Assembly (NCBI GenBank): GCA_023474345.1
Contig: JAMCXS010000032.1
Location: 1 to 64,000 of the forward strand
Reading direction: 5' to 3'
Source of the DNA: Acidobacteriota bacterium
GTDB lineage: Bacteria > Acidobacteriota > Terriglobia > UBA7540
DNA: 64,000 nucleotides
Part shown: one piece after another, positions 5,063 to 47,686 of the stretch
How the letters are laid out: every line of letters starts with the position of its first letter
How positions within the stretch are numbered: the stretch's first letter is position 1
Position numbers and translations under genes: made by a program
The notes under the pieces: generated by a model
What the model was told of the DNA's origin: nothing
What the model saw: only the letters and a program-made list of their open reading frames with translations
The model's database searches: none

Positions 5063-5085
5063 TTTAGGCAGTCAATGAGCGAGCT

Positions 5086-5553
5086 ATGGCAAATCTTCCT
5101 GCAGGTTCAGTGCTGGTGATTGGCATCGGCAACGCCTATCGCTCGGACGATGCTGTCGGTCTTGTGGTTGTGCGTCGGCTCAAGGAACAGACGCAAGGCT
5201 CTGTCCAGATTCTCGAACACGGTGGCGAAGGGGCTGACCTGATGGAGAGCTGGCGGGATGCGCGCGCAGTGATCCTCGTGGATGCCGCGCACTCAGGAGC
5301 CAGGCCGGGAACGATCCACCGCATCGACTGCCGTCATCAGCCGCTTCCACATAGCATGTTCGGAGACTCCACTCACGCCTTCGGCGTGGCTGAAGCTGTC
5401 GAGCTCAGCAGAGTGCTCGGCCGGCTTCCTCCGCGATTGGTTATGTTCGGCATAGAGGGGGAAAGCTACAAGCTCGGAACAGAACTTTCCCCGGCTGTTC
5501 GGCTGGCGATGTCCCAGGTTGTGGACACCGTACTCGAGGAAATCAATAAATAG
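5086..5553 (+). CDS. hydrogenase maturation protease (HyaD/HycI/HoxW family)
   Basis: This 155-residue endopeptidase is expected to cleave the C-terminal peptide of HydA after nickel insertion, locking the NiFe site. The N-terminal family motif VIGIGNAYRSDDAVG includes the conserved Asp, and the later acidic and His residues (VDAAHSG, DSTHAFGVAEA) fit the nickel-sensing site. The ATG at 5086 gives the normal family length. Its position directly behind hydA supports a dedicated function. A short inverted repeat (GTCCC-ttgc-GGGAC) follows the stop codon but has no T-tract. Confidence 0.92.
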   Translation: MANLPAGSVLVIGIGNAYRSDDAVGLVVVRRLKEQTQGSVQILEHGGEGADLMESWRDARAVILVDAAHSGARPGTIHRIDCRHQPLPHSMFGDSTHAFGVAEAVELSRVLGRLPPRLVMFGIEGESYKLGTELSPAVRLAMSQVVDTVLEEINK

Positions 5554-34612: not shown

Positions 34613-35137
34613 GTCGAAACCTGAGGGGAGCGCTTTGCGGCCCTAAGAACCTGTCGCCCGGCGAGATCGCAACCGCCGGATGTTTTCCCCTTCCTGTTTA
34701 TGGTTGAACCGTTCCGCCGAGTGGCAACCAGGCAGGCTTTATATGTCGTGGGGTCGTAAAACACCTGGGTTCGCGAAAGGCTGTGGCGTCGAACTGCGCT
34801 CGACGACGCTGTAGCGGCGACGTGCCGTCGCCGTCCGGCGATCACAGATCGCCGCTCCAGTACCCACCCCACATGAACTGTAGCGGCCGTGTCCCTACCG
34901 CCGCCAATGACGTTCCCAAATTTGCCTGTCCCGGTCTGTTCCTGTAGCATCGAGCTATGCTCGACGATGCCGCCCCCCGGCGATCACAGATCGCCGCTAC
35001 AGTGCCCGTCGGAGAGACGTTCCGCTGGAACGTCTCGCATGAGGAGAAGTGTAACCGCCGATCAGATAAATGTTGTTCTCTGTGCTGCTCTGTGGTAACT
35101 ATTTTGAGCACGGTCCTTGATAGGCAGGTCAAAATTC
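34613..35137. other. intergenic repeat-rich region upstream of the restriction-modification gene
   Basis: Most of this gap is filled by the repeat cluster at 34768-35042. No gene is seen. Confidence 0.6.
34768..35042. repeat. largest cluster of dispersed palindromic repeats
   Basis: The composite array has the unit order GGGTTCGCGAAAGGCTGTGG; CGTCGAACTGCGCTCGACGA; CTGTAGCGGCGACGTGCCGT ... GATCGCCGCTCCA; ACTGTAGCGGCCGTGTCCCT; CTGTAGCATCGAGCTATGCT with CGACGATG; GGCGATCACAGATCGCCG with CTACA; and the hairpin GAGACGTTC-cgct-GGAACGTCTC at the right end. It is the same architecture as 32088-32265. Confidence 0.82.
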
Positions 35138-38100
35138 GTGGCTTCGTACCCGGTTGAAACATATCGCCGTCAAATTCAAAAAGAACTTCAGGCCGGAAAC
35201 GCAACTGAGCACACCCACCGTCCGGCGCTCAAGGCGCTGATTGAAGCTCTTGTGCCGGGAGTCATGGCAACAAACGAGCCAAGGCGGGTTGAATGCGGCG
35301 CGCCTGATTATGTAATTTCCCGCAAGTCTCCGCACGGCCCCGTTACGTTAGGCCACATCGAGTGCAAGGATGTGGGCGCGGACCTCAACAAATGGGAGCG
35401 GGAAGAACAACTGAAGCGGTATCTTTCGGACCTGCCCAATCGAAACCTCATCCTGACGGACTATCTCGAATTCCGCTGGTACGTGGGTGGAGAATTCCGC
35501 CGGACGGCCCGCCTTGCCCGTGTCTCCAATGGGCACAAGTTAACCCCGGAAAAGGACGGGGGCGAATCCGTCACGGAATTACTCACCGCCTTTCTCTCCC
35601 GCGAAGCGGAACAGATAACCGACCCCAAGACGCTTGCTCTTCGGATGGCCCGGCTAACGCACTTCATCCGGGACATGATTATTTCCGCCTTCGAAAACAA
35701 GTCGGCTTCGGCCACTCTCCGCGACTTGCACGGGGCTTTTGAGAAGGCGCTAATTCCCGATCTGCCCATTGCGCAATTTGCGGATATGTTCGCTCAGACT
35801 CTCGCCTATGGTCTGTTCGCCGCTCGCGTGAATCATCACGGGCCAAGGGGTTCATTCAAGCGATTAGGCGCGGCATCGGAAATTCCAAAAACCAATCCCT
35901 TTTTGCGTCAACTCTTTGACACTATCACGGGCACGGCGCTGGATGATGAGCCTTACGCGGGATTCGTAGATGACCTGGCGCAACTCTTGGCCGATGCGGA
36001 AATGGACGCCGTGCTCGCCGATTTCGGCAAGCGGACAGCCCGGCAAGACCCGGTGGTCCACTTTTACGAAACTTTTCTTGCGGCTTATGACCCGAAACTC
36101 CGCGAAGCGCGCGGCGTCTATTACACGCCGGAGCCGGTGGTTTCTTACCTTGTGCGGTCGGTCGATTACATTCTGAAGACCCGCTTCGGATGCGCCAAAG
36201 GGCTTGCAGACACGGCCACGATTGAATACGAACGAGAGGACGATTCTGTAGCGGCGATGTCCTCATCGCCGTCCAGCGGTCGGAGACCGCCGCTACAAAA
36301 GGCTACGTCTCCGCGTGTTTTGATTCTTGACCCCGCGTGCGGGACCGGAACGTTTCTTTACTCAGTGATAGACCACATCCGACACGAATTCATGCGCCAA
36401 GGAAACGCCGGCATGTGGTCCGGCTACGTGCGGAATCATTTGTTGCCTCGCATCTTCGGTTTTGAATTATTGATGGCTCCCTATGCCGTGGCGCACTTCA
36501 AATTGGGGATGCAGCTCGCCGGGCATGACCTGACACCCGCCCAGCAGGAGAAGTGGGCTTACGATTTTTCCGGGGATGAGCGCTTGGGAGTGTATCTCAC
36601 CAACACGTTGGAAGAGGCCGAGCGGAGAGCCGAAACCCTTTTCGGCCCCTTGCGCGTCATTACGCAGGAGGCTAACGCGGCCTCAAAAATCAAAAGAGAT
36701 TTGCCGATTCTCGCAGTCATTGGCAACCCGCCTTATTCCGGGCATTCCGCCAACCGCAGTTGGGAAATCAAAAAGGGGAAAAGGGTTCCCACTTTCATCG
36801 GGAATCTGATTCTGGATTACTACAAGGTTGACGGCCAGCCTCTTGGCGAGAGAAATCCTAAGTGGCTTCAGGATGATTACGTGAAGTTCATCCGCTGGGG
36901 CCAGTGGCGCATCGAGCAGTCCGGCGCGGGGGTGCTGGCTTTCATTACGAATCACGGCTACCTGGACAACCCGACCTTTCGCGGGATGCGGCAATCGCTG
37001 ATGAACGCCTTCACGGAAATTTATGCGCTGAACCTTCATGGAAATTCTAAGAAGAAGGAAAAGTGTCCCGATGGCTCACCGGATGAAAACGTTTTCGATA
37101 TTCAACAGGGCGTGACATTGGGAATCTTCATTAAAGAACGGGACAAAGCAGGCCCGGCTAAAGTGTTTCATGCTGACCTTTGGGGACTGCGCGAAGATAA
37201 ATATAAATACCTCTTCGAGTATGACATCGAAGCAACCCAATGGACCGAACTCTCCCCATGTTCACCGGGCTACCTCTTCATCCCGCAAGAGAAGGGCTTG
37301 AGAGCCGAGTATGACGCCGGATGGAAGATCACCGACATAATGCCGATCAACTCTCTTGGCATCGCCACGGCCCGCGATTCCCTTGCGGTGCAAATGTCCA
37401 AGGCAGAGATGCTAAGAGTAGCGCGGGACTTCACGGCCCTTCCGGCGGAAGAGGCAAGGGGAAGATATGGGCTCGGGGATGACGTTCGGGATTGGAAGGT
37501 TTCGTTAGCCCAAGCGGACTTGCGCGAGCACGGCATCCGAGGCTCGGACATCAAGGAAATCCTGTATCGCCCATTCGATGCTCGATTCACTTACTACACG
37601 GGCAAGACGAGGGGTTTTCATTGTATGCCCCGCCGTGAGGTGATGGCGCACATACTCGCCGGGAAAAACGTTGGCCTTTGCACGACCCGCTCTACAGAAA
37701 TCGAGCGCGGATGGGAGCATGTACTTTGCTCGCGTGGCCTCATCCAGCTCCACACGGTTTCACTCAAGGAAGTGAACTATCTTTTCCCCCTGTACCTTTA
37801 CAGTTCCGATTCTTCCGAACAAGGGCAGAGAAAATTATCGGAGTCAGCACCGGACTTCGATGGGATGCGGCCTAACCTTGAGCAGAAGTTCGCCGCCGAC
37901 TTGACAAAGCGGTTGGGCCTCGGTTTTACCGGGGACGGCACAGGTGATCTGAAAAAGACCTTCGGGCCGGAAGATGTTTTCAATTACATTTACGCCGTCT
38001 TTCATTCGCCCACCTACCGGAGCCGCTACGCGGAATTTCTCAAGAGCGATTTCCCGCGCGTGCCGCTTACTTCGGACGTGAAGCTATTCCGCACGCTTTG

Positions 38101-38548
38101 CGTCTTGGGCGCTGACCTTGTCGCGTTGCACTTGCTCGAATCGCCCATGCTCCTAAATCCAATTGCCCGGTACCCCGTCAAGGGCTCAAACGTTACTGAG
38201 AAGGGCTTCCCGAAGTATGTTGCACCCGCAGAGCCGGAGCCGGGAACGGGAAAGCCCGTGAAGGAAGGGCGTATATACATCAATCGTGGCACGGGCGTCC
38301 CGCCCGTCGGAGATCGTGGGCAAGATGCCCATGCTACGGGCCAATACTTTGAAGGTGTCCCGCCCGAAGTTTGGCAATTCCACATCGGCGGGTACCAGGT
38401 TTGTGAAAAGTGGCTGAAGGACCGCCGGGGCCGAACGCTGACCTACGATGACCAGATGCATTATTGCAAAGTCGTGACGGCCATCAATGAAACCATCCGC
38501 CTGATGGCGGAAATCGACGCGGCCATCCCCAAATGGCCAATTGTGTGA
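35138..38548 (+). CDS. single-chain restriction-modification enzyme (type ISP/IIG-like, N6-adenine methylase)
   Basis: From the GTG at 35138 the protein has 1136 residues; a TTG at 35117 is in frame. An N-terminal PD-(D/E)XK-like nuclease domain contains GAPDYVI...LGHIECKDVG (Asp/Glu-x-Lys). A helical linker is followed by a gamma-class N6-adenine methyltransferase: motif I DPACGTGTFL near residue 398 and motif IV NPPYSG near residue 530. The C-terminus is a target-recognition and type ISP C-terminal region (QYFEGVPPEVW, FHIGGYQVCEKWLKDRRG). No DEAD helicase domain is seen between nuclease and methylase. Two dispersed repeats sit inside the gene in frame (36247-36297 and 38284-38337). Confidence 0.85.
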   Translation: MASYPVETYRRQIQKELQAGNATEHTHRPALKALIEALVPGVMATNEPRRVECGAPDYVISRKSPHGPVTLGHIECKDVGADLNKWEREEQLKRYLSDLPNRNLILTDYLEFRWYVGGEFRRTARLARVSNGHKLTPEKDGGESVTELLTAFLSREAEQITDPKTLALRMARLTHFIRDMIISAFENKSASATLRDLHGAFEKALIPDLPIAQFADMFAQTLAYGLFAARVNHHGPRGSFKRLGAASEIPKTNPFLRQLFDTITGTALDDEPYAGFVDDLAQLLADAEMDAVLADFGKRTARQDPVVHFYETFLAAYDPKLREARGVYYTPEPVVSYLVRSVDYILKTRFGCAKGLADTATIEYEREDDSVAAMSSSPSSGRRPPLQKATSPRVLILDPACGTGTFLYSVIDHIRHEFMRQGNAGMWSGYVRNHLLPRIFGFELLMAPYAVAHFKLGMQLAGHDLTPAQQEKWAYDFSGDERLGVYLTNTLEEAERRAETLFGPLRVITQEANAASKIKRDLPILAVIGNPPYSGHSANRSWEIKKGKRVPTFIGNLILDYYKVDGQPLGERNPKWLQDDYVKFIRWGQWRIEQSGAGVLAFITNHGYLDNPTFRGMRQSLMNAFTEIYALNLHGNSKKKEKCPDGSPDENVFDIQQGVTLGIFIKERDKAGPAKVFHADLWGLREDKYKYLFEYDIEATQWTELSPCSPGYLFIPQEKGLRAEYDAGWKITDIMPINSLGIATARDSLAVQMSKAEMLRVARDFTALPAEEARGRYGLGDDVRDWKVSLAQADLREHGIRGSDIKEILYRPFDARFTYYTGKTRGFHCMPRREVMAHILAGKNVGLCTTRSTEIERGWEHVLCSRGLIQLHTVSLKEVNYLFPLYLYSSDSSEQGQRKLSESAPDFDGMRPNLEQKFAADLTKRLGLGFTGDGTGDLKKTFGPEDVFNYIYAVFHSPTYRSRYAEFLKSDFPRVPLTSDVKLFRTLCVLGADLVALHLLESPMLLNPIARYPVKGSNVTEKGFPKYVAPAEPEPGTGKPVKEGRIYINRGTGVPPVGDRGQDAHATGQYFEGVPPEVWQFHIGGYQVCEKWLKDRRGRTLTYDDQMHYCKVVTAINETIRLMAEIDAAIPKWPIV
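36247..36297 (+). repeat. dispersed palindromic repeat inserted in frame in the methylase gene
   Basis: The 51-bp unit TGTAGCGGCGATGTCCTCAT ... GACCGCCGCTACA has exactly 17 codons and reads VAAMSSSPSSGRRPPLQ between EDDS and KATSPRV, just before methylase motif I. It is the same family as the intergenic units. The length keeps the frame open. Confidence 0.85.
38284..38337 (+). repeat. second dispersed repeat (GTGVPPVG/GQDAHAT type) in frame in the same gene
   Basis: The 54-bp unit CGTGGCACGGGCGTCCCGCC ... CCCATGCTACG reads RGTGVPPVGDRGQDAHAT between YIN and GQYFEGVPPEVW. A peptide of the form GTGVPPVG-x-GQDAHAT is a known product of an interspersed repeat found in several bacterial phyla. 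The flanks match the uninterrupted type ISP C-terminus. Confidence 0.75.
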
Positions 38549-39203
38549 GCAGTTGTCGGCGGTGGAGACACCGCCGCTACAGGTTGTAACCAGCCGCGAA
38601 ACGAAAGCAGATCGGGAATTACAAATTGCGAATTAAAGGCGGCAGCCGGATTTCCCCCGCTAAGGCCTTGTAACGCCGCGCGAAACCAAACGGAATGGAA
38701 GTCTTTCAGATCTGCAATTTCAAATTTCAAATTACTGAAGACTGTAGCCGGTTGCGAAGGACAAGCCGTTCAGGAATTTTGAATTAAGCCGGCATCGGCG
38801 GTTGGCGCATTTCTAGTCGCGGGCTTTCCCCATTTAGAGAACCCACCGCCAGGAACGCTCGGACTACGCCTGCCGTCTGAATCAACTGCCACGACCGGTT
38901 AACCGCACGCGGACGCCAAACCCCCGCAACTCAGAACCCGAAATTCATAATGGTCGTCATCAGGCCGCACGCAGATGATGAGACAGCCTGAAAGACGTGG
39001 AGCCTACATTAATTGCCATCCAGAGGCCCCTTTTACCCCCGAAATGGGACGCATGGGATTTTGAGCCCGAAAAACTCGAATTTATAAGTCATGTAATATC
39101 AATAAGTTACAAAATCGCAAGGGCATATAATTCGAAAAAATGCAGAATTGCGCGCCATTCTGGCACACCGGGTAACAATTGCACGCTCGCCCAAAACCGC
39201 CCC
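38549..39203. other. intergenic region with a short repeat and degenerate tandem units
   Basis: A short repeat copy, GTCGGCGGTGGAGACACCGC with CGCTACAG, lies at 38555-38582. Behind it three loosely similar units begin near 38585, 38670 and 38742, each with (T/C)TGTA-CC...GCGAA and AT-rich AATTTCAAATT-type ends. From 39000 on the DNA is AT-rich with no gene. Confidence 0.5.
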
Positions 39204-45752: not shown

Positions 45753-45869
45753 TCGCCAACCCCGAAGGGAATGGACCGAGCGGGACCGATTACCAAAGGG
45801 AGCGCGTCAGCGTGCAGGGTACAGGCTATTCTTTGTTTATCGCCTGTAACCCGCACACAGTTGTTGCGC

Positions 45870-46664
45870 TTATTTTCCAGTGGTGAACCGTCGTTCGATT
45901 GCCGCCCAATCGACGACGTTCCACCAGGCGGCAATGTATTCAGGCCGCCGATTCTGATACTTCAGGTAATAAGCGTGTTCCCAGACGTCCAGCCCCATCA
46001 CCGGGAACTTGCCCTCCATCAGGGGACTGTCCTGGTTGGCAGTGGAGTAGATGTCCAGCTTGCCGGATTTGTCCCTGACGAGCCACGCCCAGCCGGAACC
46101 GAAGCGGCCGGCTGCCGCGGCGCTGAACTTTTCCTTGAATTGCTCAAAGCCGCCGAAAGTGCCCCTGATGGCTTCCGCCAGCTTGCCGGTCGGCTGCCCA
46201 CCCTTCTTCGGTCCCATAATCGTCCAGAACATGGCATGGTTGACGTGGCCGCCGCCGTTGTTGCGAACGGTGGTCCGGATATTTTCCGGAACGATCGCAC
46301 AGTTGTTGGCAAGTAATTCCTCCACGGTCTTACCGGCCAGGTGGGGCGCCGATTCAAGCGCTTTGTTCAGGTTGTTTACATAAGCACCGTGGTGTTTGTC
46401 ATGGTGGATTTGCATTGTCATCTGGTCGATGTAGGGTTCCAACGCATCGCTTGCGTATGGCAGAGGAGGAACGGCAAAAGGCGTTGTGCCTCCTTTGGCA
46501 ATCCTTTTGCTGCCAGGTTTGGCGACTACTAGAAAAACGGTCGCGCCGCCGCCCGCAAGCTTGAAGAAATCGCGGCGACCGAGTTTTAAGGGACCGACGG
46601 GTGGCCCCAGGATTTCGTAACGACCGGGTTCGATACTAGGTTTCGGAATTCGCCCTTTGTTCAT
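45870..46664 (-). CDS. superoxide dismutase (Fe/Mn) fused to a Tat leader from an oxidoreductase
   Basis: The protein has 264 residues. From about residue 55 it is an Fe/Mn superoxide dismutase with all four metal ligands (first His in [11 protein letters not shown], His in NHAMFW, and Asp and His in DVWEHAYY). The first about 50 residues ([15 protein letters not shown], then [15 protein letters not shown]) are not SOD. They match the N-terminus of the large subunit of isoquinoline-1-oxidoreductase-type molybdenum enzymes, with a twin-arginine motif. There is no clear cleavage site, so it may stay anchored. It overlaps a decayed ferredoxin gene by four bases, as large and small subunits do in such operons. 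Its 3' two thirds are almost identical to the SOD at 47036. Confidence 0.85.
45871..46380. repeat. near-identical duplication, copy 1 (with 47037-47546)
   Basis: The segment aligns without gaps to 47037-47546 (constant offset 1166). I count about six mismatches in the first 490 bp, while the 5' parts of the two genes beyond it differ strongly. The flank after both stop codons also shows similarity (TACAGGCT...GTAACCCGC). This pattern fits gene duplication with later conversion or a recent partial duplication. Confidence 0.85.
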
Positions 46665-46933: not shown

Positions 46934-47035
46934 GACGGCAAAGACCAACCTTCGGGTGGATGAGACAAATCATGGAGACGCGCAGGTTACAGGCTGATTC
47001 TTTAATGCCCGTAACCCGCGCACGGTTTCTTGAGC

Positions 47036-47686
47036 CTATTTTCCAGCGGTGAACCGTCGTTCGATTGCCGCCCAATCGACGACGTTCCACCAGGCGGCAA
47101 TGTATTCAGGCCGCCGATTCTGATACTTCAGGTAATAAGCGTGTTCCCAGACGTCCAGCCCCATCACCGGGAACTTGCCCTCCATCAGGGGACTGTCCTG
47201 GTTGGCAGTGGAGTAGATGTCCAGCTTGCCGGATTTGTCCCTGACGAGCCACGCCCAGCCGGAACCGAAGCGGCCGGCTGCCGCGGCGCTGAACTTTTCC
47301 TTGAATTGCTCAAAGCCGCCGAAAGTGCCCCTGATGGCTTCCGCCAGCTTGCCGGTCGGCTGCCCACCCTTCTTCGGTCCCATAATCGTCCAGAACATGG
47401 CATGGTTGACGTGGCCGCCGCCGTTGTTGCGAACGGCGGTCCGGATATTTTCCGGAACGATCGCACAGTTGTTGGCCAGCAATTCCTCCACGGTCTTACC
47501 GGCCAGGTGGGGCGCCGATTCAAGCGCCTTGTTCAGATTGTTTACGTATCCCCCATGGTGTTTGCCATGGTGAATCTCCATGGTTAGCTTGTCGATGTAC
47601 GGCTCCAAAGCATCTGCCGCATACGGCAGAGCAGGAAGAGAAAACGGCATTACGCCTCCTTTTGCAGTAGCAGGTGAAGTTCCCAT
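47036..47686 (-). CDS. superoxide dismutase (Fe/Mn)
   Basis: This protein of about 216 residues is a cytoplasmic Fe/Mn superoxide dismutase that disproportionates superoxide. The ligands are in [17 protein letters not shown] and DVWEHAYY. The ATG at 47686 has AGGAGGGAATT upstream, an excellent ribosome binding site; the frame extends to 47731. The start [20 protein letters not shown] is the ordinary SOD beginning; the copy at 46664 joins its leader just before the corresponding AKGG. Metal preference (Fe or Mn) cannot be told from the sequence. Confidence 0.94.
47037..47546. repeat. near-identical duplication, copy 2 (with 45871-46380)
   Basis: This is the second copy of the SOD 3' region described at 45871-46380. 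Beyond 47546 the two genes differ in most positions, including the metal-site His region (KHHGGYV here, KHHGAYV there). Confidence 0.85.

Follow-up and report, generated by a model that had tools for sequence, protein, structure and literature searches.

REP dimers in frame at linker sites of a predicted DrdV-like restriction-methylation enzyme, with recurrence at the same linkers in homologues from several phyla

A single restriction-methylation gene carries two repetitive extragenic palindrome-type (REP) dimers in frame, and GTAG-tagged REPs recur at the same four linkers in homologues from other phyla. REPs are non-autonomous palindromes, thought to be mobilised by REP-associated tyrosine transposases (RAYTs). 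We think it probable that a working enzyme has repeatedly kept REP insertions in loops that tolerate them, independently across phyla. The observations in support are the identity of the segments as REPs, their in-frame position, homologues that are repeat-free or differently filled, recurrence at the same sites, a higher density than in neighbouring genes, low dN/dS, and placement in loops.

The gene, its product and the two inserts

The gene lies in a 64,000-nucleotide stretch of Acidobacteriota DNA, here called the window, which holds the following features.

34811..35000, no strand assigned: intergenic GTAG REP cluster upstream of the enzyme gene, of the same palindrome group as insert 1
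35117..38548, plus strand: gene of a putative single-chain type IIG/IIL-like restriction-methylation enzyme, 1143 codons (open reading frame, Pfam, PADLOC, structure model and fold matches)
36247..36297, plus strand: insert 1 (site 1), family 1 head-to-head GTAG REP dimer, residues ~378-394, adjoining methylase motif I
37119..37173, plus strand: site 3, residues ~668-686, empty here; REP-filled in homologues L003, L007, L021, L030, L037, L039 and L040
37922..37969, plus strand: site 4, residues ~936-951, empty here; REP-filled in L001, L009, L021, L032 and L040
38284..38337, plus strand: insert 2 (site 2), family 2 head-to-head GTGG/GTAG REP dimer, read as GTGVPPVGDRGQDAHAT, residues ~1057-1074
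38557..38580, minus strand: intergenic GTAG REP unit directly downstream of the enzyme stop codon

The frame is free of stops for 1143 codons from a TTG at 35117, or for 1136 from the alternative GTG start at 35138 adopted in an earlier, sequence-only reading of this DNA, which had rightly described it as open for over 1100 codons. In Pfam its product matches Type_ISP_C (E=9.6e-87) and N6_Mtase, and in PADLOC the type IIG enzyme PDLC03610 (residues 15-1134, E=6.6e-279); PD...ExK nuclease residues (D64, E82, K84), motif I and NPPY were located by inspection. Nuclease, N6-adenine methylase and target recognition domain (TRD) all lie on one chain, the layout of type IIG/IIL enzymes. An AlphaFold2 model built on an alignment of 47 homologues (mean pLDDT 86.6) most resembles, among solved structures, DrdV (7LO5, E=4e-44) and then LlaBIII (4XQK). 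DrdV (type IIL) and LlaBIII/LlaGI (type ISP) give the best structural agreement along most of the chain and share its three domains, at ~20% identity to each. However, LlaBIII has ~1500 residues against 1143 here, and type ISP enzymes possess an SF2 helicase domain between nuclease and methylase, where a Pfam search of our protein found no helicase family. Because the helicase domain is absent, sequence and model together favour a IIG/IIL enzyme resembling DrdV over a true type ISP enzyme. The genes directly flanking it are TadE/TadG-like and radical SAM.

Both repeats lie where the sequence-only reading had put them. Insert 1, TGTAGCGGCG...CGCCGCTACA, occupies exactly 36247-36297, directly ahead of motif I (LILDPACGTG), and consists of GTAGCGGCGATGTCCTCATCGCCG followed by the complement of GTAGCGGCGGTCTCCGACCGCTG. 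Insert 2 comprises two hairpins, with GTGG and GTAG at their ends, and encodes the peptide GTGVPPVG...GQDAHAT. Members of the GTAG REP superfamily are stem-loops (stem 5-13 bp, loop 2-20) that carry a GTAG tag, or a GYAG/GTGG variant of it, at one end (PMC3733652); such tags and stem-loops are present in both halves of insert 1 and in insert 2, and the head-to-head arrangement was detected by script in the former and by inspection in the latter. By these sequence features the inserts can be assigned to two families within one GTAG REP superfamily, both in frame, and not to two unrelated kinds of repeat as first described.

The inserts lengthen the protein less than their own size. Aligned with homologues that lack them, the site 1 stretch measures 129 nt against 99 nt in the repeat-free L003, L004 and L005 (+30 nt), and the site 2 stretch 114 nt against 87 nt in the repeat-free L002, L004, L005 and L006 (+27 nt). 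The net gain is therefore ~10 and ~9 codons, not the 17 and 18 originally proposed, and part of the old linker must have been replaced or lost. In the model both peptides form low-confidence coil between strands (pLDDT ~56 and ~47); site 3 is a hairpin loop and site 4 an inter-helix coil. At the site 1 position the corresponding link of DrdV is very short.

Dispersal of the two repeat families

Family 1 is dispersed: its GTAGCGG/GTAGCGT palindromes are scattered over many contigs of the genome, and in the window the TGTAGCGGC motif has 30 matches (at most one mismatch) against 13.8 +/- 3.9 expected, with none of 100 shuffles as high. In the window and at 30 further loci of the genome, which together give a sample of the family 1 copies, we counted ~49 GTAG clusters. 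The one in the enzyme gene alone lies inside a long credible open reading frame; two others overlap stop-to-stop frames (192 and 238 aa long) with no Pfam match. For family 1, then, the view that the repeats are dispersed and otherwise intergenic holds. For family 2 it needs revision, as the window has a single copy of the element's second half, with no other in the rest of the genome (75% complete), and the intergenic copies, at low copy number, are in other genomes. Separately, whole REP clusters appear to have been duplicated as units elsewhere in the genome (L178, 1927-2051 and 2362-2486; L184, 61-241 and 3292-3402), and the window contains 300-nt direct repeats, 99% identical and 1166 bp apart, at 45861-46160 and 47027-47326.

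The single-copy second-half stem raises the question of whether insert 2 came in together with the gene, transferred horizontally from a host rich in this repeat, as a trace of an earlier host. This is possible, if doubtful. The protein's best relatives are spread over several phyla, and in YP1.bin18 both copies of family 2 lie within the enzyme gene. However, first-half stems also lie between genes in YP1.bin18 and in RH2_MAG17b, and G226, from the window's own phylum, has a whole intergenic dimer whose two stems match those of insert 2. Nor was a genome rich in family 2, an abundant donor, found among 396 members of the phylum and 18 homologue hosts by exact pattern search. The idea that family 2 is wholly foreign is weakened by these intergenic copies elsewhere, one of them in the same phylum.

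Recurrence and enrichment at four linkers

Across the 64 homologue loci fetched, sites 1 and 2 are length-variable linkers, among the most variable junctions of the family; most are repeat-free and others hold different repeats, which bears out the suggestion that this gene tolerates insertions at linker sites or gains peptide segments from repeats. At site 1, short plain linkers are found in L003 to L006, and GTAG dimers or units with other stems in L001, L002 and L007. Site 2 has no repeat in L002, L004, L005 and L006; it is filled by family 2 in L003, by a GTAGCGCC dimer in L061, and by a GTCATTGCGAG-type repeat in the Chloroflexi L021 and L063, the latter repeat being absent from L040. In L001 it holds a compound insert (5066-5180), in which a GTAG unit comes first and another palindrome, encoding GHPLPEGEGRGEGE, comes after it. 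The cleanest filled/empty comparison is between L018 and L024, whose DNA is ~90% identical: a 63-nt GTAG-dimer stretch is missing in L024, leaving a near-empty site at which a few edge bases differ.

To quantify recurrence we counted GTAG units (GTAG tag, stem of at least 7 bp, loop of 2-8) in 71 homologous stretches (203 kb), excluding the window gene, with 239 neighbouring open reading frames of at least 250 aa (333 kb) as control. The homologous stretches contain 39 units (19 per 100 kb) against 4.8 expected by synonymous-codon shuffling, whereas the neighbours contain 8 (2.4 per 100 kb) against 7.55. Head-to-head dimers are found in 12 of 71 homologous stretches and 1 of 239 neighbours (Fisher p=1e-7), and in none of the 31 control frames of at least 700 aa. 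Four linkers, at residues 366-397, 668-686, 936-951 and 1030-1077, hold 32 of the 39 units, the repeat class having been picked after the first alignments were viewed and the site boundaries drawn from the same data as the counts. Some loci share a genome (L001, L002 and L032; L007 and L061), and counted by genome the convincing dimers come from ~8; the AT-rich, off-site dimer of L042 is probably due to chance. Perfect hairpins of any kind (stem at least 10) showed no enrichment (30 against 44, p=0.64), and this count was replaced by one using the published GTAG definition. CGTC-tagged units, considered as a further class, looked like chance. The one neighbouring frame with a GTAG dimer, L023 4245-5882 (546 aa, no Pfam match), has a stem close to that of family 1.

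These counts bear on whether the segments are simply native protein whose likeness to repeats comes from chance or composition, an extremely improbable reading. Both do lie within a stop-free frame. However, family 1 palindromes are scattered through the genome, the excess of units persists over synonymous shuffling, and the homologues already contradict such an origin: the same residues at both positions in other phyla, named in the sequence-only reading as the mark of native sequence, were not found, most homologues being repeat-free and others carrying unrelated repeats. Only the site 2 family is shared by L003, which has a second family 2 copy in frame at another linker, site 3; the residues are therefore not native.

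The TRD (residues ~690-930, window ~37185-37910) has been swapped between proteins that are otherwise 85-95% identical, such as L021/L063 and L018/L024. Since sites 3 and 4 bracket this domain, REPs could serve as recombination junctions for exchanging it, with carriers favoured. L021 and L063, otherwise similar enzymes, are 93% identical in the methylase region and 45% in the TRD, and L021 and L040 have related repeats on both sides of it. However, identity stays high beyond the repeats and breaks ~25 residues inside them, and pairs free of repeats, such as L011/L019, have also exchanged the TRD between the same linkers; REPs are therefore not established as junctions. Sites 1 and 2, moreover, do not flank the TRD. 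We regard such a role as very unlikely, and the REPs at sites 3 and 4 probably occupy natural linkers.

A further alternative is that the hairpins are kept for a benefit, for instance slowing ribosomes at domain boundaries or limiting expression of a potentially self-toxic enzyme. Unit density is 19 per 100 kb in the enzyme genes against 11 per 100 kb in the rest of the same loci, which is mostly intergenic, an excess that plain tolerance does not obviously predict and that counts against our preferred explanation. Both site 2 stems are also unchanged between the window gene and L003, while the backbone synonymous sites differ at ~58%; separate recent insertions may equally account for identical stems, however, and most homologues have no repeat at all. 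We consider a benefit improbable. There is similarly little likelihood that the enzyme family is a preferred REP sink in which selfish repeats were time and again taken up as linkers between domains and convergently domesticated at four positions across phyla, the DNA or mRNA hairpins aiding the enzyme, for example by pacing translation of a self-toxic protein.

We favour instead survival in tolerant loops. GTAG-tagged REPs would have entered the window gene more than once, and the survivors would be those insertions that kept the frame and fell within one of the four loops of the enzyme family; the enzyme would have remained under purifying selection, with each REP translated as ~15-20 filler residues. 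Backbone dN/dS is ~0.07-0.19 for the window gene with L001-L003, for L018/L024, and for L021, L040 and L063, a Chloroflexi trio in which every member is decorated. These low values and the predicted loop placement fit filler peptides in a working enzyme: the REP-derived peptide may be neutral, and the decorated enzyme presumably cleaves and methylates. The same process may have run separately in other phyla, using each host's own REP family; in the genome of L021 the site 3/4 repeat matches 23 times, against 0 for a control pattern, with both strands counted and some palindromes counted twice.

Insertion may have been carried out by a RAYT. The window's genome has Y1_Tnp genes, one of which (G000:C22:89383-89682, L127) has a PDHWH motif, is bracketed by inverted GTAGCGCAGAGTCT GTAG palindromes, and is likely a REP-transposase unit. 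The bracketing stem is unlike that of family 1, which counts against our explanation; we therefore only infer a link between Y1_Tnp and the insertions.

Relation to known in-frame palindromes and significance

In-frame REPs are already known. The intragenic GTAG/CGTC REPs of Di Nocera et al. (2013) share with the window inserts the GTAG tag, short stem-loops, head-to-head dimers and in-frame genic position; they are often in DNA-processing genes, including DNA-repair genes, and in two Xanthomonas species a REP lies at nearly the same place in recB (PMC3733652). The main text of that paper contains no match to "restriction" or "methyl". The present case differs in concerning one enzyme family, four fixed linkers and several phyla. 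Palindromes inserted in frame within functional genes had been reported long before as Rickettsia palindromic elements (RPE; Ogata et al., 2000, 2002, cited in PMC10969869). RPE are ~150 bp long and encode a conserved peptide, with several families in one genus, whereas the window inserts are GTAG dimers of 51 and 54 bp, of a different sequence class and in another phylum: they work like RPE insertions but are not RPE. In the main texts of mostly open-access literature we found no report of REPs in restriction genes or in the present enzyme family, nor of recurrence across phyla at fixed linkers in one defence-enzyme family.

For annotation, peptides of the GTGVPPV/GQDAHAT or VAAIYDRR type should be read as repeat-derived. 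The sites also show where DrdV-like enzymes can take up 10-40 extra residues in loops, which is of use in engineering. In-frame REPs have so far been recorded gene by gene, and neutral survival is hard to separate from use. Four recurrent loops, filled by different REP families in several phyla, provide a natural series of replicates that allows activity, expression and translation to be compared between enzymes with empty and with filled sites.
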